The notes under the pieces: generated by a model | Seen by the model: the letters and a program-made list of their open reading frames with translations, nothing else | Told to the model about the DNA's origin: nothing | Database searches by the model: none | Translations under genes and position numbers: made by a program | From: Malus domestica | Lineage: Eukaryota; Streptophyta; Magnoliopsida; Rosales; Rosaceae | Direction of reading: 5' to 3' | Length of the DNA stretch: 64,000 bases | Assembly: GCF_042453785.1 (NCBI RefSeq) | Contig: NC_091668.1 | Coordinates: 12,172,001-12,236,000, forward strand | Shown: positions 1,704 to 64,000 of the stretch, piece by piece | Layout: every line of letters begins with the position of its first letter | Position numbering within the stretch: position 1 is the first letter of the stretch

Positions 1704-1704
1704 T

Positions 1705-1958
1705 AACATTAGAAAATATTGTGAGAGAATGATCTCTATTTATAAAAGAGAGTTTCTAGTTTCATTCTGACATTGACACGTGTCGTGTTGTGATTGGCTT
1801 TTAATGTTGACACGTGTCGCGCTATGATTGGCTTCTGATGTTGACACGTGTCGCGCTGTGATTGGCCTCCTGGTTGAAGGGAAACTCTTCTGGGTCCTTG
1901 ACGGTATAACGTTGACCGGTGCTCAGTAGTTTCGGATTTGTCAAGTATGGTACAAACA
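1705..1958 (-). repeat. Inverted, diverged 5' fragment of the LTR family found at 2189-2709
   Basis: Read on the minus strand, this matches roughly the first 270 bp of the LTR at 2189, including the start TGTTTGTACC, three CACGTGTC boxes, CCAAT boxes and a TATA-like stretch near 1740, with clear divergence. It faces the younger element head to head and stops abruptly at the neighbouring LTR end. It is a relic of an earlier insertion of the same family. The AT-rich stretch 1959-2183 between them shows no gene. Confidence 0.8.
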
Positions 1959-2183
1959 ACATTCATTGGTAACAGTTAAAAATATCGTCCGTAAACTATT
2001 ATTTCAATTATTGGAATGGTATAGAGACTTAAAAAATTAAAATACGGAAATATATGATGAATGTACCTATAACGGTGTTTAATTGTCAAAAAAAAAAATT
2101 ATGACAATTTTTTTTTTTAATTTTGAAGTTGTTAAAAAGCATGTAGACGGGTGAAAAAGAGGTAATGGTAAAAAAAAGATAAA

Positions 2184-2188
2184 GGGGT
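2184..2188. repeat. 5-bp target site duplication, left copy
   Basis: GGGGT here is repeated at 8426-8430, immediately after the right LTR. It marks the insertion of the 2189-8425 retrotransposon. Confidence 0.9.
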
Positions 2189-2709
2189 TGTTTGTACCAT
2201 ACTTGACCAATCCCGAAACTACCGAGCACCGACCAACGCTATACTGTCAAGGACCCAGAAGAGTTCCCCTCCGACCAGGAGGCCAATCACTACTCGACAC
2301 GTGTCAAGATTAGAAGCCAATCAGAGCGCAGCACGTGTCGACATCAAGAACCAATCATAACATGACACATGTCAATGTGACAAAGCTACAAGTTTTTCTA
2401 TAAATAGGGGTCATTCCCCCACAATATTGCCTAATGCCATTTTGTGTTAAATCATTCACAAGAACTCACTAAATTGAGAGCTTGATCCTTTGTACTTGTG
2501 TAAGCCCTTCACTACTAATAAGAACTCCTCTACTCCGTGGACGTAGCCAATCTGGGTGAACCACGTACATCCTGTGTTTGCTTCTCTGTCTCTATTCATT
2601 TACGTACTTATCCTCACTAGTGACTGAAGCAACCAAGCAACCAAGCGAAGGTCACAAAACCTGACACTTTCTGTTGTACCAAAGTCTTCGCTGATTTTGT
2701 GCATCAACA
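2189..2709 (+). repeat. Left LTR with promoter modules
   Basis: Begins TGTTTGTACC and ends GCATCAACA. It carries three CCAATCA boxes at 2283, 2317 and 2351 (period 34 bp), each followed by a CACGTGTC or CACATGTC box, then a TATA box CTATAAATAG around 2398-2407. Transcription would start near 2430-2440. Confidence 0.93.
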
Positions 2710-2730
2710 TTTGGCGCCGTCTGTGGGAAA
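2710..2730 (+). other. Primer-binding site of the retrotransposon
   Basis: TGGCGCCGTCTGTGGGAA starts three bases after the left LTR, the expected place for the tRNA primer site of a plant Gypsy element. The matching tRNA was not determined. Confidence 0.75.
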
Positions 2731-2816
2731 CGACACTTATTCCTACTCTCTTCAGCTGTGTCAAGCTGGTTTCTATCATTCGTACACTTTCTTTTGATCA
2801 GGCATCCCTCTCCAAC

Positions 2817-3836
2817 ATGGGAAGCGAAGGAAGCCACAGCACACAGAATGACACCCTCCTTGCACATAGTGCGAAACAACGAAAGAAGGAAGGAAAATGA
2901 GTTCTTCTTCAAGCTAAAGTCGATGAGTTGGAAGCTCAGAACAACAAGATAGCAATGAGGAATGAGGTCCTCCAGGAGCAATATGAGAAGCTCTTCGAGA
3001 CACTCCACGAAGCTAGGCAAGCTCAGACACGCGAGCTTGTTGCCCCCGTGGAAGTCAACCATCAACTGGGTGCCCTCCAACATGGAGGGTCACATGCATT
3101 CGACATAGATATCCCTGATAGGGAACAGATTACCCCTCGACTTGATAATCAACATGAGGCTTCTCTTAACCCAGTTGCTTCGACCCGAACCATGAGAAGT
3201 GGAGGGAGACACCTCTTTGCTGAAGGGGCAGAAGGATCGAAAGTCGTCTTTCGCGATTGTCGGGATTTCCTGAAGCAACGTCGAGAGAATTCCATCCATA
3301 TAAGCTCAAAGATTAATGACCCAAGGATTTCTGAGAGACTCGGTCCCCTGCCACGGCCCAAGCCGGCCACCAATTTGGGGAAGGGGCAACAAGTCCTAGA
3401 GAGACATGAGGGTACAGGGGACTCAGAGGTGTTCCGACAGACATACCCTGGAAGCCAGTACAGCGAGTCCAGGGAAAAATCACATGCCCTTGATCAAACC
3501 TTCCTAATTCCAAGAGGAGATGGAGATTTACGAAAGAAAGCTCCAGTGGCACATAACTCCGCTCAGGACCCCCTTGTCCTACAACTTCTTGAGGAAGTAA
3601 ACAAGTTGAAGGCTGAACGTCAGGCTGAAATACCTGACTGGAACCAACCCAGGCCTGGCCCTCTTACAAGGAGGATCCTCAACACCCCCCTTCAAGCAAA
3701 GACAAAGCAGAAGCTTGGCTTGCAACTTTATACTGGAAAAGAGGACCCGATTGAGCACCTTAACCTCTTTGAATCCACCATGGCATACCGATCTGAACAA
3801 GAGAAAATGGAGTTTCGAAGCTCACAACAAATCTGA
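2817..3836 (+). pseudogene. Broken gag of the retrotransposon
   Basis: ATG at 2817 opens a frame that meets a TGA at 2898-2900 and then continues in the same frame to a TGA at 3834-3836. Without the internal stop the product would be about 339 residues. The middle is charged and coiled-coil-like (about 2910-3060). The end resembles the start of the plant retrotransposon gag domain (a Tyr-Thr-Gly-Lys-Glu-Asp-Pro...His-Leu pattern near 3729-3768), but the frame then runs into the first 181-bp tandem unit and stops. The capsid domain is therefore truncated and nothing of pol follows. Probably not a functional capsid gene; a shorter protein from the ATG at 2928 cannot be excluded. Confidence 0.75.
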
Positions 3837-4505
3837 CGGGTTGACAGAAAAATAATAACCAGTCATTCATCATACCTGGATTTCTGGACTTATACTGCTC
3901 TGAGGGATCTCAAATTTGGATATGTTGTAGTTCACGAGCTGAGGAACAACTTCAATGAAGAAAGCATACCGATCTGAACAAGAGAAAATGGAGTTTCGAA
4001 GCTCACAACAAATCTGACGGGTTGACAGAAAAATAATAACCAGTCATTCATCATACCTGGATTTCTGGAGTCATACTGCTCCGAGGGATCTCAAATTTGG
4101 ATATGTTGTAGTTCACAAGCTGAGGAACAACTTCAATGAAGAAAGCATGCTGATCTGAGCAAGAGAAAATAGAGTTTCAAAGCTCACAACAAATCTGACG
4201 GGTTGACAGACAAATGATAAACAGTCACTCATCATACCTGGATTTCTGGAGTTATACTAATCCGAGGGACCTCAAATTTGGATATGTTTTAGTTCACAAG
4301 TTAGGGAACAACTTCGATGAAGAAAGTATGTTGATCTGAACAAGAGAAAATGGAGTTTCGAAGCTCACAACAAGTCTGACGGATTAACAGAACATTGATG
4401 AACAGTTACTCATCATACTTGAATTTCTGAAGTTGTACTACTCCGATGGATCTCAAATTTGGATATGTTGTAGTTCACAAGATAAGGAAAAACTTTCATG
4501 AAGAC
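3783..4505 (+). repeat. Tandem array, 181-bp unit, four copies
   Basis: Units start at 3783, 3964, 4145 and 4326, exactly 181 bp apart, each opening GCATACCGATCTGAAC or a close variant. The first two are nearly identical; the third and fourth are progressively diverged. The array begins inside the truncated gag end. Confidence 0.92.
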
Positions 4506-5118
4506 GACTTTGCAATCTGAGCTATAGAGAAAGGTGTTATCTTGCATCCACTCAGGCTGATTAGTGGAAACGAAAAGCAATTCCACCAAAGAAAAGATGA
4601 AAAAGAGAGAAAAGCTACTAATTGCACTTGATCTTGTCTAGTCAATAGCATGCAGCATCAAACACACAAAAGTTGGAAATATTTTTAGATAAAGCATATA
4701 CGAATGTGTGACATCGAAACAAGAATTCGTTACTTTGACAAATTAGTAACACGCGAGACACCTCATTCGGCAACTTTCTTCGCCTGAAGACTTGGGGGAC
4801 TCCCACCATATGCTACTGCACCTTGATACTCGGCAGTCTCACAACCACTCAGTGACTTGGATTTTTCAAGTCTCCAACCGAGAAGTTTTCCTCACTCGGG
4901 AAATTAAGGGAACACTACCTCAAACTACATGCTTCACTCACAAAGCTTCAACAATACAGGTTTCAACAAAAGCAAAAATTCAAAGAACTTTATGAAGAAG
5001 GCTTTGGTGTATTTAACACAATATGTTGAAATGAAGCAAAGCTTATTTATTAATATTTTCGATAAGCCACAAATATGTACATATACATGAGTCAAAATAA
5101 ACAAACAAAAGGGAGCCT
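4506..5118. other. Non-coding retrotransposon interior with a duplicated pre-LTR block
   Basis: No gene is seen. A purine tract CTTGGGGGACTCC lies near 4790-4803. Positions 4855-4920 resemble 7838-7904, the block just before the right LTR. An AATAAA on the minus strand at 5046-5051 would serve the antisense gene. Confidence 0.6.
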
Positions 5119-5799
5119 TCACAAAGGTTGCTTAGGGGAAGTCTCAGCAGTCGGTAGAGCCCCAGAAAGAGAAAGCACCGGAGGGTGGTTATCCGGAGCC
5201 TCAGTACTTGACAAAACCCCAGAAGGAGGAGGCATTGGAGGTTTATCATTTGAAGCTTCATTACCAGGTACAACCTTAGAGGACGAAGGCAATAAATGCC
5301 TTTGGAACAAACCCACAAACCGCTGATGATCAAGTAAAACCTTACCATCAGATTCCTTCATCTGGTCAAGCTTCCTCTTCATGTTTGTAGCATAGTCATG
5401 GGCGAGCCGGTGCAACTGCTTATTCTCATGCTTGAGCCCTCTAATCTCCTGTTTGAGACTCATCACTTCAGCAGCCAATGATTCAACTTGGCGGGTTCTA
5501 GCAAATAGGCGTTGGGCCATATTAGACACAGAACCTGCACACTGAACACTAAGAGCCAGAGAGTCCTTAACAGCCAACTCATCAGACCGTTTGGAAAGTA
5601 GTCTATTATCTTTGGGAGTGAGAAGGTTCCTGGCCACCACTGCAGCGGTCATATCATTCTTCATCACAGAATCCCCAACGGTAAGAGGACCAGTAGGGGA
5701 TATGAAGGATGGGCGCCATATGTTGTCTGGAGAAGGCGTGGCTGTCTCTTCTCCAAGGTTCAAGTCAAAGCGACGGTCGGAGGGTCCAGACATTTTCAA
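5119..5799 (-). CDS. Antisense ORF of the retrotransposon, 226 aa coiled-coil protein
   Basis: The frame is open for 226 codons opposite to the element's sense strand; a second Met lies at codon 3. The protein has a basic/acidic N-terminus, a predicted coiled coil over about residues 94-150 (Leu/Lys/Glu-rich, MSLKQEIRGLKHEN), and a Pro/Ser-rich tail of imperfect repeats (about 171-226). No enzyme motif is recognised. On the minus strand a TATA-like TTATAGAGG lies about 110 bp before the start, and AATAAA lies 68 bp after the stop. Additional antisense ORFs near the 3' LTR are known in Tat-lineage Gypsy elements, function unresolved. Intactness fits the youth of the insertion. It is not a shadow of a sense gene, since the sense strand here has no coherent frame. 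Confidence 0.6.
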   Translation of the reverse strand: MKMSGPSDRRFDLNLGEETATPSPDNIWRPSFISPTGPLTVGDSVMKNDMTAAVVARNLLTPKDNRLLSKRSDELAVKDSLALSVQCAGSVSNMAQRLFARTRQVESLAAEVMSLKQEIRGLKHENKQLHRLAHDYATNMKRKLDQMKESDGKVLLDHQRFVGLFQRHLLPSSSKVVPGNEASNDKPPMPPPSGVLSSTEAPDNHPPVLSLSGALPTAETSPKQPL

Positions 5800-7888
5800 A
5801 TGTGTTGAAGAAGGAAGAGGTCAGACAAATCAAGATCTTAGAAGTGCAAGAAATGAGCTTCTACTGGTAGAGATTCAAGTGTGCTGTGGAACTTAATGCC
5901 AGCCTCTATAAAAATCTGCACTCGACGGAGCTTCAGAAATCGAAGAGGCGTTTGCTTTCTCAAAAGCTGGGCTGCTCAGAGACCACGAGGGCCGATCTCA
6001 GAAATCGAAGAAGCACCTGCTTTTTCAGCCTCGTCAGCACCTGTCACATGCACACTCAGCTTTGCGGAAATTACGGGCAATCTGTCGAAGATTTCTGGTG
6101 AAGTAGAAAGCACGTGAATCTTACTGTTCAATCACCGCTCTCCATATGCACCATCAACTCCTCGGGTACCACATATAACTTTGTCAAAGATCTCTGACAA
6201 AGTTTAGGTACGAGAATTTCGAAGTTCCAGCTACCCTACTATTACCCATAAGGGTAAAGGAACAGCACCACTACTTGACAACTGGAAAGTCCCTATGTGT
6301 GTCGACCTCCGGGTTTTGCGGCAAGACAGGTTGGCAAGAACGTCCAACCTTTACTCACATTCGAGAAAAGACTCCCAACATAATTACTTTCTAAAAAACC
6401 GGAGTAGCACCGCTTTCCGAATCTCGAGAGTCAGATCCTCGACGGGATTGCTTGTTCGAAAACCGAAGAGGCACAACTCTCAGAACTTCGAGAGCCAGAT
6501 TTCCTTAGATAAAGCTTGTCTGTAATCTTCACACGTAACATCAGCTTTCCAGATACCACATACCACTTTTTCAAAGTGCTCTGACAAAATTAAAACACGT
6601 GAAGCTGGCAGCTCCCACTACATTGCTGTGACCAAGAAGGGTAAAGGAATAGCATTACTACTTGTTATTGGGAAATCCCTATATACATTGACCTCCCTCC
6701 TCAACGGACAGGCAAACCTGCAAAAATGCTCAACCCTTTCTCGCATTCGAAAAGGCACCCTCAACATAACCTCTCGAAATACTCAGCTTTATTTCCCCCT
6801 GATAATACCTCAGCAAATAAGCCATACCAAGAACAAGAGTATCTCATATCATCAGGGTCGAAAGCAAGAGTATCCTATATCATGCTTTCTCCCTATCTTT
6901 GTCTTTGTCCTTGTCCACACCTGCAGGACAAGGAGAAAGAGAGCAGTCAGTCGGAACCTGAAATCAAACCTCCAATTTGGAACTGACTGCCTGGAGCCTT
7001 TGCCTGGTTGCTTACTTAGCATTGCTCTCGAGTACTCATCCTCAACTGCTGTCAAGGTCACGAATTCCACCGGCAAATACCTCATGACAGTTGATCAGAT
7101 ATTGGCTCTTTACACTGAAGCTGCCAAGCGTGGATGAGTCACTATGAAGGAATGTTCTGAAGGACCATTTAAATGCAAAGGTTGCACACCACTTCTGCCA
7201 TGCAAAAGATTGAAGCAGAAGGTTCAACGGTGAGCTGAAACAGATCACTACAGCACGACACCTTTCCATACCACATTCATTATTCCGTCAACAGCAAAAG
7301 TATCCCATATCATCAAGGTCGAACGTACTCTAGATTTGATGGACTTGTTTTGACCCTCAAATTTTTGGGTCGGCCTTATACTCTGAAGGGCACAAGAAAA
7401 CCCTCCAGCACAGTTCAAGAATAAGCCTGTGGAAAGTTACTTCTTCAAAAGCAAAAGTATCTCATATCATCTCTTATCCATTTGCTTCTCCTTATCCTGG
7501 CAGTTGAATGAGAGACAAGGAGAATGAGAACAATCAACCGGAAGCCGAAGTCAAACCTCTGATCCTGGGTTGCTTACTTGGAAGTTTGACTGCTTACCTT
7601 GTCTGTCACCTCTTTCGGCAGATCTCCTAGCTCGGCGACTTGGGGGACTCCTACTATAGGGTTTGTATCACACTTGACTAAGCCCGAAACTACAACTAAG
7701 CTTCAAGTGAAATTGATACATTACCTTGTGCGTCAACATCAGCTAAATACACCATTCCCGGATGGAGGAAAGGTACTTCCAGAGAAGGGCAGATGAAGAT
7801 CAGACCACACTTCGGTACTTAGAAGTTTCGTGATTACTCAAGGGATTGGATCTTGCAAGTCCCCAACCGAGGAGTTTTCCTCACTCGG
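5800..7888. other. Non-coding 3' interior of the retrotransposon with diverged internal repeats
   Basis: Only short frames occur. Related blocks recur: AAGTATCTCATATCATC-like sequence near 6838, 7300 and 7450, followed at 6838 and 7450 by similar purine-rich stretches; and AGAAATCGAAGA at about 5936 and 6000. A PPT-like tract at 7638-7651 is followed at about 7659-7695 by a diverged copy of the LTR start. Confidence 0.6.
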
Positions 7889-7904
7889 GAACTTAGGGGA
7901 GCAC
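7889..7904 (+). other. Polypurine tract before the right LTR
   Basis: ACTTAGGGGAGCAC directly precedes the right LTR, the site expected to prime plus-strand DNA synthesis. Confidence 0.7.
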
Positions 7905-8425
7905 TGTTTGTACCATACTTGACCAATCCCGAAACTACCGAGCACCGACCAACGCTATACTGTCAAGGACCCAGAAGAGTTCCCCTCCGACCAGGAGGCC
8001 AATCACTACTCGACACGTGTCAAGATTAGAAGCCAATCAGAGCGCAGCACGTGTCGACATCAAGAACCAATCATAACATGACACATGTCAATGTGACAAA
8101 GCTACAAGTTTTTCTATAAATAGGGGTCATTCCCCCACAATATTGCCTAATGCCATTTTGTGTTAAATCATTCACAAGAACTCACTAAATTGAGAGCTTG
8201 ATCCTTTGTACTTGTGTAAGCCCTTCACTACTAATAAGAACTCCTCTACTCCGTGGACGTAGCCAATCTGGGTGAACCACGTACATCCTGTGTTTGCTTC
8301 TCTGTCTCTATTCATTTACGTACTTATCCTCACTAGTGACTGAAGCAACCAAGCAACCAAGCGAAGGTCACAAAACCTGACACTTTCTGTTGTACCAAAG
8401 TCTTCGCTGATTTTGTGCATCAACA
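7905..8425 (+). repeat. Right LTR
   Basis: 521 bp, apparently identical to the left LTR, and followed by GGGGT (8426-8430). It carries the same CCAAT/G-box modules and TATA box about 0.6 kb upstream of the NAGK start, and points toward that gene. Confidence 0.93.
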
Positions 8426-35725: not shown

Positions 35726-37170
35726 TGTCACATCCCGGCTCGGGTCCACCACATCCTGAGCCCGTTCCACCACCGTAGCACGATATTGTCCACTTTGGGC
35801 TTACCATTCCCTCACGGTTTTGTTTTTGGGAACTCATGAGCAACTTCTCAGTGGGTCACCCATCTTGGGAGTGCTCTAGCCTCCTTCTCGCTTAACTTCG
35901 AAGTTCCTACGAAACCTAAAGTCAGTGAGCTCCCAAAAGGCATCGTGCTAGGTAGGGATGGGAATATACATTTAAGGATCACTCCCCTGGGCGATGTGGG
36001 ATGTTACAATCCACCCCCCTTAAGGGCCCGATGTTCTCGTCGACACACTTCTGGCCAGGGATTGGCTCTAATACCATTTTGTCGCATCCTGACCCGGGTC
36101 CACCACATCCCGGGCCCATTCCACCACCATAACACGATATTGTCCGCTTTGGGCTTACCATTCCTTCATGATTTGGTTTTTGGGAACTCACGAGCAACTT
36201 CCTAGTGGGTCACCCATCTTGGGAGTGCTAACTTAACTTCGGAGTTCCTATGACACCTGAAGCCAGTGAGCTCCCAAAAGGCCTCGTGCTAGGTAGAGAT
36301 GAGAATATACATTTAAAGATCACTCGCATGGGCGATGTGGGATGTTACAATCCACCCCCCTTAGGGGCCCGATGTCCTCGTCGACACACTTCAGGCCAAG
36401 GATTGGCTCTGATACCATTTGTCACATCCCGGCCCTGGTCCACCACATCCTGGGCCCGTTCCATCACTATAGCACGATATTATCTACTTTGAGCTTACCA
36501 TTGTAACGTCCCACATCGCCCAGGGGAGTGATCCTTAAATGTATATTCTCATCCCTACTTAGCACAAGGCCTTTTGGGAGCTCACTAGCTTCAAGTTTCG
36601 TAGGAACTCCAAAGTTAAGCCAGAAGGAGGCCAGAGCACTCCTAGGATGTGTGACTCACTGGGAAGTTGCTCGTGAGTTCCCAAAAACAAAACCGTGAGG
36701 GAATGGTAAGCCCAAAGCAGACAATATCGTGCTACGGTGGTGGAACAGGCCCCGGAAGTGGTCCGCCCCGGGTCGGGATGTGAAAAATGGTAAGCCCAAA
36801 ACAGACAATATCGTACTACGGTGGTGGAATGGGCCCTAGAAGTGGTGGACCCGGGCCGGGATGCACCGTAGCATAATATTGTCCATCCCGGCTCAGGTCC
36901 ACCACTTCCCAGGCTCGTTCCACCACCATAGCACGATATTGTCCACTTTTGGCTTACCATTCCCTTATGGTTTTGTTTTTGGGAACTCACGAGCAACTTC
37001 CCAGTGGGTCACCCATCCTGGGAGTGCTATGGCTTCATTCTCGCTTATCTTCGGAGTTCCTATGAAACCCAAAGCCAGTGAGCTCCTAAAAGGCCTCGTG
37101 CTAGGTAGAGATGAGAATATACATATAATGCTTCCATGATCCACTTCCCTGGGCAATGTGGGATGTAACA
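35726..37170. mobile_element. Rearranged cluster of Cassandra (5S-rRNA-like) TRIM elements
   Basis: Several ~280-bp LTRs contain a segment like 5S rRNA, e.g. the complement of GCTTAACTTCGAAGTTCC near 35890 and GGGTCACCCATCTTGGGAG near 35852. Pieces: LTR 35726-36008 (-), spacer with TGGTATTAGAGCC primer site, LTR 36080-36349 (-), spacer, LTR piece 36420-36501 (-), LTR 36502-36783 (+), LTR piece about 36786-36862 (+), LTR about 36883-37170 (-). GTTAA flanks the whole cluster at 35721-35725 and 37171-37175, so it descends from one insertion. Cassandra is a known non-coding plant retroelement. Confidence 0.9.
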
Positions 37171-50536: not shown

Positions 50537-52776
50537 ACATAATCATTATCGTCATTAGCAACAACCACCAAATTACATCACACTCAGTCAGCTAAAATTA
50601 TCACAAAATTAAATACTACAGCAGGTCTAATCCAATCAACAATTCACCAAATCAAATAAACCAGAGACCACGCAATGCACCATAAATTCACACAATTCAT
50701 TGCACGTTACCATGAAATCAAAAGTTTCAGAATTCACGCAATAACACAGCAAACAGACCTAAAGGTTAAACAGAATCACAAAAACAACACAAATTTCAGC
50801 AATTTCAGAACCAAATTCCCTACAATTGTAATCAATCAACGAAGAAACCAAATCCAATTCAAATCAAATCAACACAAATTACGCAATTATACGAACTTCT
50901 TAAAGAATAACGAACTTTCAATCTGCTGCGACACAAAAGCGGTGCAGTTGCCGATCTGAATCTGATAACAAACGGCGATGGGGATCCGATTCGATATCCG
51001 GAGCTCCGAAACTAACAGAGAAGGTCGTAGAGAGAGAAACGCCGGGATAGTGACGGAGAGAGAGAAAGCAATGCGGAATGATGAGAGAGAATTCGAACGC
51101 GATTGCTATTTATAGCATTTGCGAAGATAAGATCGCTTCGCGAGCCTCCGAAATTGGCCCGAAATGGAAAGCGTGGGGACCACTGGTGACAGCTCTCAGC
51201 AATAAATTGTCTGAAAATATCTCCGCTTTTTCCATATTTAATAATAACGTACTCATTCCTATGTATCATCACCCACTGTATTATCCTGCATATGCGAATC
51301 GAACAGTCCTCATACCATAAATTTGCATCCAACAGTCATAAAGAGAGGGATCGCAGTAGTTACAGTGAAGACGACTGCAGAATATCATTATCCTTTGAAA
51401 GTCGGTGATTTATGTGATCCAAGCGTACAAGTCACGTGATGGCGATCCAGCTTGCAATTTGGATTTGCGTTGACAATACGTGTTACTAAATTTGGTCAAG
51501 GTGCTTGACTGCTTGCCCCGCGTGCAGACGAATTAAGTGTGGATGATTTTGGTGGTATCAAATAGATATCTAATTAATTAGTCATGATTATATTGTTGTT
51601 ATATAGCTGGGTACGTTAATTTTACTTTAGAGTAACGTTAAGGACACATCGTATAATCAACATCTCATTAAATATATTATTAAAGATTAAGTACTTAAAA
51701 CTCTTTAAATTTTTTGTGTCATTTCGAATTGATGTCAATATTTTTTAACATTCTAAACAAGTACCCAACCTATTAGAAATGTCACATCTGTTAAGCTCAG
51801 TTAAAAATTTGTTAAATGAACTAGGACTTACTTTGTCTTTACAATCAATAGAAAGTCATAGAAGCATATAACATTCACCAACTAACGATCACCACCCCCC
51901 ATTAGGCCATTATCTCCAAACACAAAGCAAAATCATCAGCTCCACCGTACAACTCAAGTCGCCAACATTGAAAAGAAGGTCATGAAGGTTGCTAAACTGG
52001 TGTCGACTACCATGATGCGGCCACCACCATTTGCTCACAAACAAGAACTGAAAGTTTTATGAGCCGAGTTCCGACGAATGAGGAAATTACATGAGGAAAA
52101 TCAAACTCCTTGAAATCCTATTTGAATTCTTAACTCCCTTCTTTGTTAGGAGATAGCTCTCCTGATGTAATTTCAATGTGGGTCCATTTTCAATTCAATT
52201 CAATACATGTTTGATCATTGAGTTATACAATTTATAATCTATATTTGAAATTTAGATTTTTGAGGCAACTAATATTAATGTTGACCATGATATATCCAGT
52301 TGGTGGATTTTGAATATAATGTATGTTTGAAAAATTAACTAGGGCTTAACAGATGTGACATTCAATAGGTTAGGTATTTGTTCAGAATATTTGAAAATGT
52401 TGAGACCAATTTAAAATGAGATTAAAAAGTTGAGGGTAAACTAATGTGATATTCCTGACATTTTTCTTTTTCTAATTGATGTCTTAATTTCTCTCAAATT
52501 TCATGTTTTACTTATGAGCATTTTTTTTTCATTTATTAATACGATGATGTTTATCCAGTTGTCTTGAATCTTGATAACCTTTTTGGTTTGTATGGCTCAA
52601 CGTTCTATCCTTTCACTATGTCGATAATAATCTGATATTTGTTTTTGTATGACTGTTCCCACAATGTGCCCTGTTATCTTGAACACACAGTAGACACTAG
52701 GCAGGCACCGATGACCAGGGAAAGGGATCCGGACCGATGAACAGGTAAAGGATTCGGAGAGAATTCCTTCCTTCTA

Positions 52777-52911
52777 ATCCATCAAATCAAATGATTTGTG
52801 CCGTTGAAATTTGATCAAATGACTACGAACAGGGGATCCACTTTAAAAGTTATAATAACTTCAACCGTTAGATCAATTTTCAACAGCATGAATTCTCTGA
52901 TTTGATGGATT
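52777..52911. repeat. Hairpin segment present only in duplication copy 1
   Basis: TAATCCATCAAATCAAAT is mirrored by TGATTTGATGGATTA. Copy 2 has only AATCCACCACATTGGATT at the corresponding place (60518-60535). Confidence 0.7.
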
Positions 52912-53672
52912 AAGAGGAAGGGATCCTGAGAAGATTTCTTTCCCAATGACAATATCGTTGTCATGGAAAAAGTGAAAAACTCTGCCCTTCTTCACAATCA
53001 CATGCCGCCTGCCCCGTTTCCTTTGTTTCTTACTGTTGTCCCAAACGAGAATGTTTTGTATGTCAAGAATACAATTTGGTACACCTTGTTGAGAGTGTTT
53101 GATTCAACCAACTTGACAAAAGGCCACATACGCTTCACGTCACCCAGTTGTTGTCCATGTGTAGGCTTGAAAATCCGACACACGTGCTGGGGCGTGTTGA
53201 GAGTTGTCCCCACATCGGTGAGGGACAATGTTTGTTATGTGCTTATATGATCTTGGGTTACTCCTCATATTGCCAATTGATTTTATGGTAGAATCTCAAT
53301 TTCATCACAACTGTCATATTTTAAGTAGGATTTTTTTATTTTTTATTTTTTTATGTATCTACCACTTGTATTATGGCAAATTTTTTTTTGTCAAAGTATT
53401 ATGACACTTATTGTATTGGGCCGTGTTCTTAACACAGTGAAAAATATCTTTTAGAAAACCTAAAGAGTTAAAGAGGATGACATAGCGACTGTGACAAAGG
53501 TTTGTAGTTGAACCAACTTTCTCGCCCTCGATATGTTAACGCTTCATTAGAAGTGCTTTTATTAAAAACACGTTTGACATTTTATTTATAAAATAAATAA
53601 ATAAAGTGCTTTTTGAAAAAGCACGTCCGAATGCTTTTCTAAATGTACTTCTATGACTTTAGAAACGGATTT

Positions 53673-53884
53673 GGATCCTATCTGGATCTAAATTATGGGG
53701 ATCCTACGGATCCTCACATCTTAACCATTCATCGTAAATTGTGCGGTCAAAAATCATTTTGAATTTTTTTATTTAAAATTAAATACAAATAGTACCTAAC
53801 AAAAATTGACCGCACGATGTACGATGAATTACTAAGATGTGAGGAGTCTTAGAATCCCAAAAAGAGGATCCGTAAAGGATCCTC
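53673..53884. mobile_element. GGATCC-ended hairpin MITE, copy 1
   Basis: TCCTCACATCTTAACCATTC on the left is mirrored by GAATTACTAAGATGTGAGGA on the right, around an AT-rich centre. The same element is at 61282-61494. Confidence 0.75.
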
Positions 53885-54417
53885 ATCATTTAAAACACTT
53901 TTAACTTTTTTTAGAAGCAGCTTGATTGGATAGCTGTATTGATCTTTGCATTTTGCATTGCATGAATCCTTCAATTCCCACTTTTCACTTTTGTAACGCT
54001 GAAGCTTATATATGTGCGCGTGGATGATTGTTAGCTAAATGTATATAAGTTAGACATGCATAATCAAACTATTAATGTTGTTACATTCATGCATGTACAA
54101 TGACGCATGTAGATTGTCAACCATTAATGTATATATAAAATCTTACCGACGTAATCGAGTATCTTTGAGACTCATTTGCAAGTACAGTTGAAAGTTGCTT
54201 CTGAATGTGATGCAAGTGTCAATTGTTAAGTATCTAGGTCTAATACGCGTTATCTAGGTTGAAACACTGTCATCGCCCACTGTATTATCCTGCACATGCG
54301 ATTCAAACAGTCCTCGTATCATAACTTTACATCCAACAGTCATAAAGAGAAGGATCGCAGTAGTTATAGTGAAGACGACTGCAGTATATCATTATCCTTT
54401 AAAAGTCAGTGATTTAT

Positions 54418-55626
54418 GGGTGTGTTTGGTATGCGGGATGGGACGGGACGGAACAGAACGGGATGAGGCGTTCCGTCCTGCGTTTGGTACGCCAAAAATG
54501 GGTGGAACGCGCTGTTCCACGGGACAGAAATTGGGTGTTTTTGCGTCCTGCCTCCTCCCCTCGGAACGGGTTGTTCCACGTATGTGGAACACAAAAATTC
54601 CACCGTTTACCCTCCCTCTCTCTCCCGCAGCCTCCTTCTCCTGTACCTTCGTTACCCTCCCTTTCTCCTGTAGCATCCTTCTCCACCACAAACCTAGCAA
54701 CCCAAATGCTTCGTTACCCAGCAACCCAGATGAATTCGAGCTCGATTTCGGGCTTTCCGAGCTGAGTCGGCTTTCTCTTCCTCTTCTCTTCTATTTCTTT
54801 CGTCGGCTCTCTCTCTTTTAACTGAACAAAAATGGACAAGAAGCTCAGGAGCTTACCTCACGTGCCAAGGAAACATATTTTACAGGAACCCCATCAAGCA
54901 TGCTCGTAGAAATCAAGCTCCTAACATTCGACGGGAAGCTGAAAGCCTGAAAGCCTGAAAGCAGCAACTCCACGTCCACCTTCCAATGGCTTCCGTCAAC
55001 CCCTGTTGCTCCTCAATGGCTCTTTCCCCTTCTCCGTAAGCCCCCACCCCCTCTCTCTCTCTCTCTGGGTTTAAAATTTGTATTATCCGTTTATTGATTT
55101 GAATAATCACAGTGATCTGAAATGTTAATCCTGAAATTGTGAGAGATAAATCGAGGTTTTTCATGTTTTGGAATTGAGGCATTGTGTGTGTAATGTGTGT
55201 TTAATGTTAAATCTTCAAATGGAGGAGGTAAATTGATATTACGCTAAACCAGGTAGTGGATGGAAATTGGGAATCCATATTCGCCTCCCTTAGCCTTTTC
55301 ATATCGTTGGTTTTAAATTGGGGAAAAATAGTTTGATTTACTGGAATTGAAGAGAAAGATAATGAAATGAAGAGAAAGTATGAGTTTGATTTACTGGGTT
55401 TGATTTTTACTGGGAGATCTGAGCATGCGGGAGAGAGAGAGTCAAATGGAAGAAGAGAAAGCAGAGAAACGGGAGAGAGAGAGTCAAATAAAAATGGTAA
55501 GTTAGTCATTTAATCTAGTTTCGTTCTGTTCCATCTTGCCAGTACCAAACATGACATGAATCTTTGTTCCGTTCCGTTCCGTCCCGTCCCGTCCCATCCC
55601 GTCCCGTCTGTGTACCAAACGCTACC
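54418..55626. mobile_element. TIR element, 1,209 bp, absent from duplication copy 1
   Basis: GGGTGTGTTTGGTA at the left and the complement of TACCAAACGCTACC at the right, each bordered inward by GGGACGGGACGG-type tracts. TAT is repeated at 54415-54417 and 55627-55629. No transposase; short frames in the middle (54830-54950) are not recognised. The uninterrupted empty site is visible in copy 1 near 51412. Confidence 0.85.
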
Positions 55627-55874
55627 TATGTGATCCAAGCGTACAAGCCACGTGATGGGGATCCAGCTTGCAATTTGGATTTGGGTTGACAACACGTGTT
55701 ACTAAATTTGGTCAAGGTGCTTAACTGCTTGCCCCGTGTGCAGACGAATTAAGTGACTTGACGTGGATGATTTTGGTGGTATCAAATAGATATCTAATTA
55801 ATTAGTCATGATTATATTGTTGTTATATAGCTGGGTAATCCATGTACAACGGTTTCGTTAATTTTACTTTAGAG

Positions 55875-58800
55875 TAGGCCTGGCAATTCCTGACACGACC
55901 CGATAACCCGACACGACACGACCCGAAATTAACAGGTGTTCGAGTCGACACGATAACGAATCGGGTATTATCGGATAACCCGATAAGCACCTGTTAAGAT
56001 AACGGGTTGGTTCGGGTATACACGTGGGTAACACGATACACGATAAGCAGAATATTAATTTAATAATTTTATAACCCTAAAAAATACTATAATAATTATA
56101 TATATTAATTTAACAATTTTATACCCCTAAAAAGTTTAAAACTATAATTATATATATATATATATATATAATTAACTATAATAATTATATATACTATAAT
56201 AATTATACCCCCAAAATATTAACTATAATAATTATATATATATATATATATATATATTAAATTTTAAATTAAAATTTATACCCCTAAAAACTATAATAAT
56301 TATACGTACAAAATAAATAGATTTAAATCTACATAATAAATAAATATACATATATATACACACCATTGAACTTGATGGGATACACGAAACTAATTTCAAC
56401 GATCAAACTGTCAAACTTGTTTGTATATGCTTCGAGATCGCATAAGCCAAAAATCACAAAAAATAAACATTCAGAGATCAAGTAATGAGACAAAACTTTT
56501 CGACGATTATAAAACAAAAAATCACGATTTAACGGTTATTTTAACTCCGATTTTGATTATTTTTTACATCTACACTCCTTGACCTTATATGAATACAATG
56601 AATGAACTCGATCTTCATTTTAAAATAGTTACAATAGTGGATACCACAAAATCTTATGTTATACTTAATGAAAGTATAAATAAACTCTTAAGTATTAGTG
56701 AATCTATTGTTTTTATGGGATATGCATTATACGAAACTAGTTTCAACGATCCAACCGTCAAACATGTTTGTATATACTTCGAGATCACATACACCAAAAA
56801 TTGAAAAAAATAAACATTAAGAGATCAAGTAACGGGACAAAACCTTTCAACGGTTATAAAACGAAAAATCACGATTTAACGGTTATTTTAACTCCGATTT
56901 TGATGATTTCTTACAGCTACACTCCTTGACCATATATGAATACAATGAATTAACTCGATCTTCAATTTAAAATATTTACAATAGTGGATACCACAAAATC
57001 TTATGTTATACTTAATAAAAGTATGAATAAACTCTTAAGTATTAGTGAATCTATTATTTTTATGGGATACGCATTCTACGAAACTAGTTTCAACGATCCA
57101 ACCGTCAAACATGTTTGTATATACTTCGAGATCACATACGCCAAAAATTGAAAAAAACAAACATTAAGAGATCAAGTAATGAGACAAAACTTTTCGACGG
57201 TTATAAAATGAAAAATCACGATTTAACGGTTATTTTAACTCCAATTTTGATTATTTTTTACATCTACACTCCTTGACCTTATATGAATACAATGAATGAA
57301 CTCGATCTTCATTTTAAAATATTTACAATAGTGGATACCACAAAATCTTATGTTTTACTTAATGAAAGTATGAATAAACTCTTAAATATTAGTGAATCTA
57401 TTGTTTTTATGGGATACGCATTCTACGAAACTAGTTTCAACGATCCAAGCGTCAAACATGTTTGTATATACTTCGAGATCACATACGCCAAAAATTGAAA
57501 AAAACAAACATTAAGAGATCAAGTAACAGGACAAAATGTTTCGACGGTTATAAAATGAAAAATCACGATTTAACGGTTATTTTAACTCCGATTTTGATTA
57601 TTTTTTACATCTACACTCCTTGACCTTATATGAATACAATGAATGAACTCGATCTTCATTTTAAAATATTTACAGTAGTGGATACCACAAAATCTTATGT
57701 TATACTTAATGAAAGTATAAATAAACTCTTAAGTATTAGTGAATCTATTGTTTTTATGGGATATGCATTATACGAAACTAGTTTCAACGATCCAACCGTC
57801 AAACATGTTTGTATATACTTCGAGATCACATACACCAAAAATTGAAAAAAATAAACATTAAGAGATCAAGTAACGGGACAAAACCTTTCAACGGTTATAA
57901 AACGAAAAATCACGATTTAACGGTTATTTTAACTCCGATTTTGATGATTTCTTACAGCTACACTCCTTGACCATATATGAATACAATGAATTAACTCGAT
58001 CTTCAATTTAAAATATTTACAATAGTGGATACCACAAAATCTTATGTTATACTTAATAAAAGTATGAATAAACTCTTAAGTATTAGTGAATCTATTATTT
58101 TTATGGGATACGCATTCTACGAAACTAGTTTCAACGATCCAACCGTCAAACATGTTTGTATATACTTCGAGATCACATACGCCAAAAATTGAAAAAAACA
58201 AACATTAAGAGATCAAGTAATGAAACAAAACTTTTCGACGGTTATAAAATGAAAAATCACGATTTAACGGTTATTTTAACTCCGATTTTGATCATTTTTT
58301 ACATCTACACTCCTTGACCTTATATGAATACAATGAATGAACTCGATCTTCATTTTAAAAATATTTACAATAGTGGATACCACAAAATCTTATGTTTTAC
58401 TTAATGAAAGTATGAATAAACTCTTAAATATTAGTGAATCTATTGTTTTTATGGGATACGCATTCTACGAAACTAGTTTCAACGATCCAACCGTCAAACA
58501 TGTTTGTATATACTTCGAGATCACATACGCCAAAAATTGAAAAAAACAAACATTAAGAGATCATGTAATGAAACAAAACTTTTCAATGGTTATAAAACGA
58601 AAAATCACGATTTAACGGTTATTTTAACTCCGATTTTGATGATTTTTTACAGCTACACTCCTTGACCCTATATGAATACAATGAATGAACTCGATCTTCA
58701 ATTTAAAATATTTACAATAGTGGATACCATAAAATCTTATGTTATACTTAATGAAAGTATGAATAAACTCTTAAGTGTTAGTGAATCTATATATTAAATT

Positions 58801-59140
58801 AAATTTAAAAATTTGATTAGAACTGTATAAATGTTTTTTTTATTAAGCTCTTATTTTCGAGTGTAGATGTAGTACTTAAACGATAAATGTGTTTTAATGT
58901 TTTGAAGTAATATTTATGTGACAATGTGTGGTATGTGCAAATTTAAGAAAAAAATATATTTTTCTTAACGGGTCTTAACGGGTCATAACGGGTCGGGTCA
59001 CTTTACCCGTTGGGTAAAGTGACCCGACCTGTTAAGGACCCGTTAAGATAACAGGTGTGACACGACACGACCCGTTAAGATAACAGGTGTTACACGAAAA
59101 CGACACGAACACGACAGACACGACCTGTTTGCCAGGCCTA
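55875..59140. mobile_element. hAT-like element, 3,266 bp, carrying a satellite array
   Basis: Ends TAGGCCTGGCAA and the complement TTGCCAGGCCTA; CTTTAGAG is repeated at 55867-55874 and 59141-59148, an 8-bp duplication as in hAT. Both subterminal regions are full of ACGACACGACCCG and AACGGGT motifs. The interior is AT-rich and dominated by 347-bp tandem repeats. No transposase is present. Copy 1 of the segmental duplication shows the empty site near 51630. Confidence 0.9.
56591..58795 (+). repeat. 347-bp satellite array with three-monomer higher-order repeat
   Basis: Monomers start at 56591, 56938, 57285, 57632, 57979, 58326 and 58674 (last partial). Monomers 1 and 4, 2 and 5, and 3 and 6 are most alike, giving a 1,041-bp higher-order unit. 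A diverged partial monomer lies at about 56345-56590. Monomers 1, 3, 4 and 6 keep an open frame of 67-71 codons; 2 and 5 have a stop after five codons. Confidence 0.95.
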
Positions 59141-60196
59141 CTTTAGAGTAACGTTAAGGACACATCGTATTATCAACATCTCATTACCCTTAAATATATT
59201 ATTAAAGATTAAGTACTTAAAGCTCCTTAAATTTTTTGTGTCATTTTAAATTGATCTTAATATTTTTTAACATTCTAAATAAGGACCTAACGTATTAGAA
59301 ATGTCACATCTATTAAGCCAAGTTAAAAATTCGTTAAATGAACTAGGACTTACTTTGTCTCTACAATCAATAGAAGGTCATGGAAGCATATAACATTCAC
59401 CAACTAACAATCATCACCCCCCCCATTAGGCCATTATCTCCAAACACAACGTAGCTCCACCTTACAACTCAAGCCGCCAACATTGAAAAGAAGATCATAA
59501 AGGTTGCTAAACTGGTGTCGACTACCATGATGCGGCCACCACCATCTTCATTGCTCGCAAAGAAGAACTGAAAGTTTTATGAGCCGAGTTCCGACGAATG
59601 AGGAAATTACATGAGGAAAAACAAACTCCTTGAAATCCTATCTGAATTCTTAACTCCCTTCTTTGTTAGGAGATAGCTCTCTTGATATAATTTCAATGTG
59701 GGTCCATTTTCAATTCAATTCAATACATGTTTGATCATTGAGTTGTATAATTTATAATCTATGTTTGAAATTTAGATTTTTGAGGCAACTAATATTAATG
59801 TTGATCATGATATACCCAGTTGGTGGGTTTTGAATATAATGTATGTTTGGAAAATTAACCAGGGCTTAACAGATGCGACATTCAATAGGTTATGTATTTG
59901 TTCAGAATGTTTGAAAATGTTGAGACAAATTTAAAATGAGATTAAAAAGTTGAGGGTAAATTAATGTGATATTCCTGATATTTTTCTTTTTCTAATTGAT
60001 GTCTTAATTTCTCTCAAATTTCATGTTTTACTTGTGAGCATTTTTTTTTCATTTTTTAATACGATGATGTTTATCCATTCTTTATCTTGAATCTTGATAA
60101 CCTTTTTGGTTTGTATGGCTCAACGTTCTGTCCTTTCACTATCTCGATAATGATCTGATTAATTTGTTTTTGTATGACTCTGTTCCCACAATGTGC

Positions 60197-60410
60197 TCCT
60201 AGCTTATGTATATTCCTGACGTTCTATCCATGATAATGCGTTCCTAGCTTGCAGAACTACAAACCGGAGAACAAAAAACATACCCCCTTTCGATAAATCT
60301 TAAAAACGATAAGATTTGAATTAAAGACCTTACTTTCGCAGATGTCGCGTCTTATAATGTAAAGTGCTTATGCCAATTACAATCATTGAGATAGAAGGCT
60401 ATAAATGTGC
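60197..60410. repeat. 214-bp segment present only in duplication copy 2
   Basis: Bordered by AATGTGC at 60190-60196 and 60404-60410; copy 1 has a single AATGTGC at the matching point. Either a short insertion with a 7-bp duplication or a deletion from copy 1 at a microhomology. Confidence 0.75.
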
Positions 60411-61281
60411 CCTGTTATCTTGAACACACAGTAGACACTAGGCAGGCACCGATGACCAGGGAAAGGGATCCGGACCGATGAACAGGCAAAGGATTCGGAG
60501 AGAATTCTTTCCTTCTAATCCACCACATTGGATTAAGAGGAAGGGATCCGAAGAAGATCTCTTTCCCAATGACACTAGATCGTTGTCATGGAAAAAATGA
60601 AAAACTCTGCCCTTCTTCACAATCACATGCTGCCTGTCCTGTTTCCTTTGTTTCTTACTGTTGTCCCAAACGAGAAAGTTTTGTATGTCGAGAATACAAT
60701 TTGGTACACCTTGTTGAGAGTGTTTGATTCAACCAACTTGACAAACGGCCACACGCACTCCACGTCACCCAATTGTTGTCCACGTGTAGGCTTGAAAATC
60801 CGCCACACGTGCGGGGGCGTGTTGAGAGTTGTCCCACATTGATGAGGGACAAGGTTTGCTATGTGCTTTATGATCTTGAGTTACTTCTCATATTGCCAAT
60901 TGGTTTTATAGTGAAATCTCAATTTCATCACACCTGTCATATTTTAAGTAGGATTTTTTTTATGTATCTATAACTTGTATTATGACACTTTTTTTTCTTC
61001 AAAGTATTATGACACTTAATGTATTAAGCCGTGTTTTTAACATAGTGAGAAATCTCTTTTAGAAAACCTAAAGAGTTAAAGAGGATGACATAGCGACTGT
61101 GACAAACGTTCGTAGTTGAACCAACTTTCTCGCCCTCGATATGTTAACGCTTCATTAGAAGTGTTTTTATTAAAAACACGTTTGACATTTTATTTATAAA
61201 AAAAAACATTTAAAGTGCTTTTTGAAAAAGCATGTCCGAATGCTTTTCTAAATGTACTTCTATGACTTTAGAAATGGATTT

Positions 61282-61494
61282 GGATCCCATCCGGATCTAA
61301 ATTGTGGGGATCCTACGGATCCTTACATCTTAACCGTTTATCGTAAATTGTGCAGTCAAAAATCATTTTGAATTTTTTTATTTAAAATTAAATACAAATA
61401 GTACCTAACAAAAATTGACCGCACCATGTACGATGAACTACTATGATGTAAGGATTCTTAGGATCCCCAAAAAGAAGATCCAGAAAAGATCCTC
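61282..61494. mobile_element. GGATCC-ended hairpin MITE, copy 2
   Basis: Paralogue of the element at 53673-53884, duplicated with the segment; a few base changes. Confidence 0.72.
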
Positions 61495-61870
61495 ATCGTT
61501 TAAAACACTTTTAACCTTTTTCAGAAGCAGCTTGATTGGATAGCTGCATTGATCTCATTTTGCAATGCATGAATCCTTCAATTCCCACTTTTCACTTTTG
61601 TAACGCTAAAACTTATATATGTGCGCGTGGATGATTGTTAGCCAAATGTACATAAGTTTGACATGCATAATCAAACTATTAATGTTGTTACACTCATGCA
61701 ACTACAATGGCATGTAGATTGTCAACCATTAATGTATATATAAAATCTTACCGACGTAATCGAGTATCTTCAAGACTCATTTGCACGTACGGTTGAAAGT
61801 TGCGTCTGAATGTGATGCAAGTGTCAACTGTTAAGTATCTAGGTCTAATTATCTAGGTTGAAACACGCGT

Positions 61871-62417: not shown

Positions 62418-64000
62418 ATGAAGAGAAGAAACATTCACATTTTTGTACTCTCCATTTTCCTCATACCGATCTTATTCCTCGGTGCTGCTGCTGGCGAAGA
62501 GCTTCAGATTTCGCACAATGCCGGCCTGAGAGACTCGTTGCGGACGTCACATTACAAGCAAAGGCAGCTCTTGTATTACATTGACCAAGATGGGTCACGA
62601 GGTGAGACTGTGACAGTCCCAGACGCCCTTGTTTTTGAAAACTCAAGACTCAGAAGTGCCTACATTGCCCTCCAAGCATGGAAGCAAGCCATGGTCTCGG
62701 ATCCTCGGGATCAAATATCCAACTGGGTTGGATCCGATGTGTGCAAATACACTGGAGTCTTCTGCGCCCAAGCCCCAGACGACCCGTCGGTCCAAACGGT
62801 TGCCGGCATTGATCTAAACCATGCTGACATTGCAGGGTTTCTCCCGGAAGAGCTTGGTCTTCTCTCGGATATTGCATTGTTTCACATCAACTCAAATCGT
62901 TTCTGTGGCAAAGTCCCAAAGAGTTTCAACAAGTTGCAGCTGCTTTTCGAGCTTGATCTAAGCAACAACCGCTTTGCTGGGGAATTTCCTGATGTTGTTC
63001 TTCAGCTGCCAGCACTAAAATTTCTGGACCTGCGATTCAATGAGTTTGAAGGTGAAGTCCCCAAGGAACTGTTTGATAAGGACCTTGATGCAATCTTCAT
63101 CAACCACAACAGATTTTCCTTCGAATTGCCAAATAATTTTGGGAACTCGCCGGTCTCAGTCATTGTTCTTGCTAACAATAACTTCCATGGATGTGTACCG
63201 GCCAGCCTTGGCAACATGTCCAAGAATTTAAATGAATTGGTGCTCACTAACAATGGGTTCCACTCGTGTTTGCCAAGGGAGATAGGGATGCTAAAGAAAG
63301 TGACAGTGTTTGATGTGAGCCATAATCGGTTTGTGGGAGAGTTGCCGAAGGAAATAGTTGAAATGGAAAGCTTGGAGCAGCTGAATGTGGCTCATAACAT
63401 GCTCAGAGGGACTATACCAGAAGGTGTTTGTGAACTTCAGAATCTGGCAAAATTTAGCATTGAGCACAACTTTTTCACTGTCGAGCCACCAATGTGTTTG
63501 AAGTTGAAGGAGTTTGACGACAGCAAGAATTGCTTGCGGAAAAGGCCAAAGCAGAGAACCTTGTTGCAATGCAAATTGGCTTTGTCTAAGAAAGTTGATT
63601 GTAGTTCTTTTGGATGCTATCCTTTTGTTCCTCCTTCACCACCATCACCACCACTGCCTCCACCATCACCATCACCGCCTACACCATCACCACCACCGCA
63701 TCCTCCATCACCACCACTGCCTCGACCATTTCCATCATCGCCTCCACCATCTCCATCGCCTCCACCTCCACCATCACCTTTGCCTCGACCATCACCACCA
63801 TTGCATCCACCACCGCCTCCACCATCTCCACCACCGCCTTCGCCATCACCTCCACCTCCATCACCATCACCGCCTCCACCACCACCACCACCGCCTTCAC
63901 CATCACCACCACCACATCCACCATCACCGCCACCACCTCTGCCATCACCTCTGCCTCCATCACCATCACCGCCTCCACCATCACCACCACCACATCCACC
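62418..64000 (+). CDS. Leucine-rich repeat extensin-like protein (LRX), 3' end outside window
   Basis: ATG at 62418 opens a frame that stays open to the window end (527 complete codons). Residues 1-26 are a signal peptide. An LRX N-terminal region follows (YYIDQDGSRGE; SNWVGSDVCKYTGVFC), then about ten leucine-rich repeats (about 130-370) with xLxxLxLxxN patterns, a Cys-rich hinge ending VDCSSFGCYPF, and from about 402 a tail of Ser-Pro2-4, Thr-Pro, Leu-Pro and His-Pro repeats. LRX proteins are secreted, bind RALF peptides through the LRR part and anchor in the wall by the extensin part. No Tyr appears in the visible tail after Tyr399, although extensin tails usually have Tyr. The upstream ATG at 62413 is followed by TGA. 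No break seen. Confidence 0.95.
   Translation, partial: MKRRNIHIFVLSIFLIPILFLGAAAGEELQISHNAGLRDSLRTSHYKQRQLLYYIDQDGSRGETVTVPDALVFENSRLRSAYIALQAWKQAMVSDPRDQISNWVGSDVCKYTGVFCAQAPDDPSVQTVAGIDLNHADIAGFLPEELGLLSDIALFHINSNRFCGKVPKSFNKLQLLFELDLSNNRFAGEFPDVVLQLPALKFLDLRFNEFEGEVPKELFDKDLDAIFINHNRFSFELPNNFGNSPVSVIVLANNNFHGCVPASLGNMSKNLNELVLTNNGFHSCLPREIGMLKKVTVFDVSHNRFVGELPKEIVEMESLEQLNVAHNMLRGTIPEGVCELQNLAKFSIEHNFFTVEPPMCLKLKEFDDSKNCLRKRPKQRTLLQCKLALSKKVDCSSFGCYPFVPPSPPSPPLPPPSPSPPTPSPPPHPPSPPLPRPFPSSPPPSPSPPPPPSPLPRPSPPLHPPPPPPSPPPPSPSPPPPSPSPPPPPPPPPSPSPPPHPPSPPPPLPSPLPPSPSPPPPSPPPHP

Follow-up and report, generated by a model that had tools for sequence, protein, structure and literature searches.

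The hAT-like element and its insertion site

The window, that is, the whole stretch of 64,000 nucleotides of Malus domestica DNA analysed here (C8:12172001-12236000), contains a 3,266-bp element at positions 55875-59140, the features of which are collected in Table 1. The element lies within a tandemly duplicated segment (51266-54418 and 55627-61866; pieces 87-97% identical). By count alone, the terminal 12-mer TAGGCCTGGCAA is ordinary, with 3 matches at two or fewer mismatches against 2.93 expected; the non-chance signal is the exact inverted pair of 12-mers bounded by identical 8-mers, together with the empty site. The ends and the 8-bp duplication given in the preliminary description were both found to be exact, with the empty site in the same window. 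Insertion is certain, since an uninterrupted paralogue of the flank, with one CTTTAGAG and no element, is present in the window. As the element occurs in one segment copy only, the time of its insertion is bounded, and the empty site at 51625 shows that a single unit with precisely these limits was inserted after the segment duplication.

Open frames inside the element do not exceed 71 aa (the longest in the region has 100 aa), and the element is non-autonomous because it encodes no transposase. Scanning the window for Rfam families and tRNAs gave no matches. The transposases of other hAT elements bind subterminal motifs, and by analogy the left subterminal region is a candidate transposase-binding region.

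Table 1. Features of the window element and its insertion site (positions in the window; L049 and L050 are related copies described in the text)
Feature	Position	Strand	Remarks
Empty paralogous site, single CTTTAGAG	51625-51632	.	reads through without element
Left copy of 8-bp TSD, CTTTAGAG	55867-55874	.	matched by the single copy at the empty site
Left TIR, TAGGCCTGGCAA	55875-55886	+	same 12-mer, 0 mismatches, at both ends of L050 and of L049
Left subterminal region	55875-56040	+	ACCCG 7, CACGA 5, TAACAGGT 2
AT-rich spacer, left end to array	56041-56383	.	
Tandem array	56384-58790	+	monomer starts 56384, 56731, 57078, 57425, 57772, 58119; partial seventh from 58467
Block copy 1, ~1,005 bp, near-identical	56517-57521	+	basis of the apparent higher order
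Block copy 2	57558-58563	+	offset 1041/1042 from copy 1
Stretch common to L050 1856-1898 (43 bp, 95%)	58773-58815	+	includes TATA-like CTATATATTAA, found by eye
Right end, matches L050 from 4938 to right tip	58803-59140	+	comparison with L050
Right subterminal region	58956-59140	+	ACCCG 8, CACGA 6, TAACAGGT 3
Right TIR	59129-59140	-	exact inverted copy of TAGGCCTGGCAA, 0 mismatches
Right copy of 8-bp TSD, CTTTAGAG	59141-59148	.	identical to left copy

The array itself might provide extra transposase-binding sites, as has been proposed for the internal repeats of Galileo and Tetris (PMC4079207). CACGA, present 5 and 6 times in the outer ends, occurs once per monomer (7 in 2,407 bp, or 2.9 per kb vs 1.1 elsewhere in the window), whereas the outer ends carry ACCCG 7+8 times and TAACAGGT 2+3 times and the array carries neither. 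The monomer also has no sizeable match to the element ends, and its derivation from them was rejected; we consider a binding-site role for the array very unlikely.

The window holds further repeats at a distance from the element. An LTR-retrotransposon-like unit with few long open frames spans 2189-8425, with 521-bp direct repeats (2189-2709 and 7905-8425) that are 100% identical and GGGGT flanks on both sides; it is a young insertion, given the identical repeats and these flanks. Within it, a 181-bp sequence is repeated four times in tandem (3783-4504). A 341-bp tandem repeat of 2.2 copies lies at 35726-37170 along with additional pieces, in direct and inverted orientation, in which CATCCCGGCCC-like sequence is abundant, and CCACCA-type repeats with periods of 6, 9, 21 and 57 bp, possibly coding, occupy 63637-64000 and run past the window end.

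The element family across the genome

We searched the genome (651 Mb, 19 contigs) with one monomer of the array and took 40 scored loci, of 2,429 candidate places, together with their flanks. All 40 show at least one end of the window element's family. The left end is present in 39, the remaining one ending at the edge of the fetched sequence, and the right end, whole or partial, in 35. At 22 of the 40 loci the two ends form a pair flanked by identical 8-bp duplications, while the duplication has one mismatch at three loci and two mismatches at one; at 14 an acceptable end pair with target duplication was not found, some of these being cut by the fetched stretch and others damaged. Counting the last partial monomer, the loci carry 3 (2 loci), 4 (6), 5 (8), 6 (8), 7 (8), 8 (3), 10 (4) or 16 (1) monomers, with at least two of the 40 arrays (L031, L043) cut by the fetched stretch. 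A search with the left end also found L049, a 1,705-bp copy with ~2.5 monomers and the TSD ACTGCACA.

Monomers and ends thus recur across the genome rather than being confined to this locus, and the same ends, with other TSDs, enclose 3-16 monomers at the 40 scored loci. The proposal that transposition spreads a ready-made array was borne out in that the array travels with the element copies. Among 24 perfect duplications, T stands at position 2 in 14 and A at position 7 in 14, as raw counts; the target preference consensus of hAT elements is nTnnnnAn.

Full-length relatives carry the array upstream of a hAT transposase gene

A 206-bp query from the left end gave 40 scored matches (of 1,132 candidates; 96-100% identical), and a search for the PF05699 domain scored 150 of 1,495 candidates. 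Seven of the 40 scored left-end matches have a same-strand PF05699 domain at an inward distance of 4.3-6.7 kb, in every case within a 118-aa frame. One of these relatives, L050, spans 5,205 bp (73-5277), has perfect ends and is flanked on either side by GTTTTAAT. It contains a 573-aa open frame matching PF14372 (hAT RNase-H domain, 5.5e-26) and a 118-aa last exon matching PF05699 (hAT dimerisation domain, 3.6e-33). Its array of 3.8 monomers (544-1855) lies between the left end and the transposase gene. Next in order, all placed by eye, are a TATA-like string (1870), a stretch rich in pyrimidines and a coding frame from 2538; L050 1856-1898, the counterpart of window 58773-58815, is directly upstream of the transposase gene. 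The earlier assignment of the window element to the hAT type is therefore upheld by its short TIRs, its 8-bp TSD and the hAT transposase in a partner with the same ends.

L050 is the sole full-length copy read whole, and we regard it as a relative and not the direct parent because its monomers are only 88-89% identical to those of the window. A second candidate full-length copy, L051, was partly read and contains 11.8 monomers, with eight neighbouring pairs that are 100% identical. Relative to L050, the end-to-transposase spacing of the six other candidates differs by 6.96, 2.01, 1.97, 1.88, 4.75 and 1.52 monomer lengths. Spacing was rejected as a measure of monomer number, as L051 has 8 extra monomers, not 7. 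The presence of the array in a transposase-coding copy indicates that it belongs to the parent element and that the window copy arose from such a parent by internal deletion.

Internal deletions and the origin of the window copy

Similarity between the window element and L050 extends through L050 position 1898 and resumes at 4938, so that ~3.0 kb of L050-like sequence (~1899-4937), comprising the transposase gene, is absent. Junctions of the right part relative to L050, mapped on 20 of the 40 loci, fall at ~4938-4956 (5 loci), ~4846-4850 (8), 4600 (4) and 5025 (2), with L016 unplaced. These junctions indicate that the array was kept through at least four separate deletions. The window copy is very probably a non-autonomous derivative of a hAT family whose parent carries both the transposase and an array of ~346-bp units.

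We propose the following origin. The parent family would have possessed a hAT transposase and a short ~346-bp tandem array, located inward of the left end and ahead of the transposase gene. Internal deletions would have removed the gene while both ends and the array stayed, and the derivative was then probably moved in trans by the transposase of full-length copies acting on the common ends, the array being copied together with the element. Array length would shift by whole monomers, through unequal exchange, replication slippage or post-excision repair synthesis, and in the window copy one such change would have produced a second copy of a three-monomer block of ~1 kb. We infer that full-length elements gave rise to deleted ones; the reverse, in which a deleted element gained a transposase gene, is the less likely course.

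The three-monomer order arose by recent duplication in the window copy

The window array has a period of 347 with 6.9 copies and 94% matches, and consists of six full 347-bp monomers (m1-m6) and a seventh (m7) of 324/347 positions. The preliminary description was therefore right about the six monomers and had overlooked the partial seventh. Its two 1,041-bp three-monomer units correspond to a real repeat; m2 and m5 show 0/347 differences, and m3 and m6 only 3 plus one inserted base. The units are not clean three-monomer blocks, however, as m1 and m4 differ at 23 positions, 21 of them within the first 133 bases. The two block copies differ by 6 substitutions and 1 indel over 1,005 bp.

The closest relative of the window copy among the sampled loci, L010, has five monomers, of which the first corresponds to m1, the second to m4, the third to m2/m5, the fourth to m3/m6 and the fifth to m7. 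In the comparison with L010, the first 133 bases of m1 are of the first-monomer type, and the remainder is nearer the second-type monomer m4. An array of five monomers in which three were duplicated and one was lost would give this order. Because the m2/m5 and m3/m6 duplicates are nearer to each other than to L010, the duplication postdates the split of the two lineages. Inheritance of the higher order from an ancestor was rejected in view of the same closeness of the duplicates and of L010, which lacks the three-monomer repeat. Nor does m4 agree with a four-monomer array whose last and first monomers underwent a single exchange, since within monomer columns 98-133 it shows 10 differences from m7 but 1 from the second monomer of L010; two or more steps are required.

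Identity of at least 99% at three-monomer spacing was observed at 3 of the 40 loci, namely the window copy, L044 (several units) and L048, and the repeats at L044 and L048 arose separately, each on its own. In L012, a monomer pair is 99.3% identical at one-monomer spacing. Altogether, the three-monomer order is a local, recent duplication of ~1 kb, private to the window copy among the sampled loci.

Monomer order is shared between copies

We aligned 251 monomers (three of odd length omitted) and dropped three from cut arrays for a nearest-relative test. The nearest relative of a first monomer in another copy was itself a first monomer in 39 of 39 cases, compared with 6.8 on average and 22 at most in 2,000 within-element shuffles. 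Last monomers matched last monomers in 23 of 38 cases (shuffle mean 6.5, maximum 25); taken alone, the last-monomer signal is below some shuffles. The common order suggests that the array was inherited with the element. In a FastTree analysis, 16 monomers of the full-length type group with 19 first monomers (support 0.86), although over positions 1-133 similarity to L050 is just marginally higher for first monomers (0.885) than for internal ones (0.875).

Changes in monomer number can be followed in L039 and L048, which lie ~23 kb apart with flank and element 96% identical and carry 7 vs 10 monomers. Two of the extra monomers of L048 are 99.7% like their neighbours vs 97.7% like those of L039, and the third is 98.3% vs 98.0%. 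Three monomers were thus gained in place at L048, following duplication of the locus.

The array is very probably not a captured satellite

The preliminary description had read the array as satellite DNA with centromere-like higher-order structure. In such a scenario, a pre-existing, perhaps centromeric, satellite was caught in a small hAT element and then spread as a higher-order array. The monomer length and tandem order do look satellite-like, and the arrays do move along with the element. Against capture, element ends are present at 40 of 40 scored monomer loci, all of which belong to the element family, and the array is present in the transposase-coding L050. The higher order on which the centromeric comparison rested is private to the window copy among the sampled loci; a higher-order unit repeated many times or common to loci was not found, and there are two block copies in the window element.

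Long 347-bp arrays were also sought with a 5,671-bp array query, which gave 41 matches at 38 scored of 2,039 candidate places; the longest place, on C4, spans ~5.8 kb in two joined pieces. Long tandem arrays independent of the element were found neither among the 40 scored loci nor among the 38 array-query places. A large array would have yielded many full-length matches at one place. As the search skips very common words and an assembly may collapse satellites, the case for the absence of an independent long satellite is strong but not final. With element ends at all 40 scored monomer loci and no long array among the 38 scored places, a captured centromeric satellite was rejected, and satellite capture as a whole is highly improbable.

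A further array of ~15 monomers on C7 has a perfect element end as its left boundary, and the sequence to its right (L053, C7:13819240-13819760) shows no element end within 521 bp. The C7 array is either a truncated copy or the product of a later rearrangement.

Possible roles of the array

The position of the array suggests a comparison with the 5'UTR of mouse L1, in which working upstream repeats would drive or tune the transposase gene with an output that varies with monomer number. In L050 the array lies directly upstream of the coding frame with the TATA-like string between them, and the two copies of full-length or candidate status that were examined each contain an array, of 3.8 and 11.8 monomers. 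Mouse L1 promoters are tandem monomers whose number varies (PMC9022269). Column conservation across the 251 monomers, mostly from derivatives, argues against this, as no strongly protected block is apparent: the best 15-base window reached 0.9933 vs a permutation 95% level of 0.9930. With one 15-base window just over the permutation level, a conserved regulatory block within the monomers was discarded, and we hold a function as upstream repeats to be possible, if doubtful. It is tempting to speculate further that a tandem promoter array drives the transposase gene, that each monomer adds output, that expansion (from 3.8 to 11.8 in two full-length-type copies) tunes activity and that the derivatives spread an enhancer array, although we think this extended version unlikely. 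A passive, slippage-tolerant array is equally compatible with the data.

Discussion

In plants, Ac/Ds comprises an autonomous hAT element and internally deleted derivatives that keep both ends, and the window family resembles it as a hAT family with internal-deletion derivatives of the same kind. We know of no comparable upstream tandem array in Ac. In the literature outside Repbase and most subscription papers, we found no report of this hAT family, and none of a hAT transposase gene preceded by an array; a literature search for the end sequence returned nothing related, as judged by title.

Internal repeats have been described in hAT derivatives of cod, and transposons that carry repeats are known from Drosophila and Xenopus. 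The Atlantic cod MITEs gadMor-hAT-1784 and gadMor-hAT-8043 are likewise non-autonomous and hAT-derived, with internal tandem repeats in arrays of varying length (PMC12368964). In cod, however, 167-169-bp units lie inside ~600-bp TIRs, whereas the window element has one 347-bp array between 12-bp ends; the window family also differs from the cod elements in carrying the array in a transposase-coding copy. Tetris of Drosophila virilis is another non-autonomous DNA transposon with internal tandem repeats, and its repeat number changes through monomer duplication, also between alleles; unlike the window element, it is a foldback element whose two inverted arms both bear repeats, and its repeats form satellite-like arrays of kb size outside the element, none of which was seen here (PMC4079207). 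The miDNA4 MITE of Xenopus tropicalis and the central repeats of Helitron/DINE elements similarly combine a mobile element with a tandem array thought to seed satellites, but these are other element types, and no satellite surfaced here (PMC9659126). Mouse L1 shares variable tandem monomers directly upstream of the coding region; it is a retrotransposon with promoter activity shown (PMC9022269), whereas any promoter activity of the array in the window family is putative.

The family described here offers, in one genome, a transposase-coding parent, several kinds of derivative and arrays of 3-16 monomers, with monomer order as a readable record. It illustrates how satellite-looking, even higher-order-looking, DNA arises inside a transposon by local duplication with no link to a centromere, and it calls for caution in satellite surveys, where transposon-internal arrays may mimic higher-order satellites. 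Whether tandem monomers ahead of the gene serve DNA transposons as they do mouse L1 is a further, testable question.
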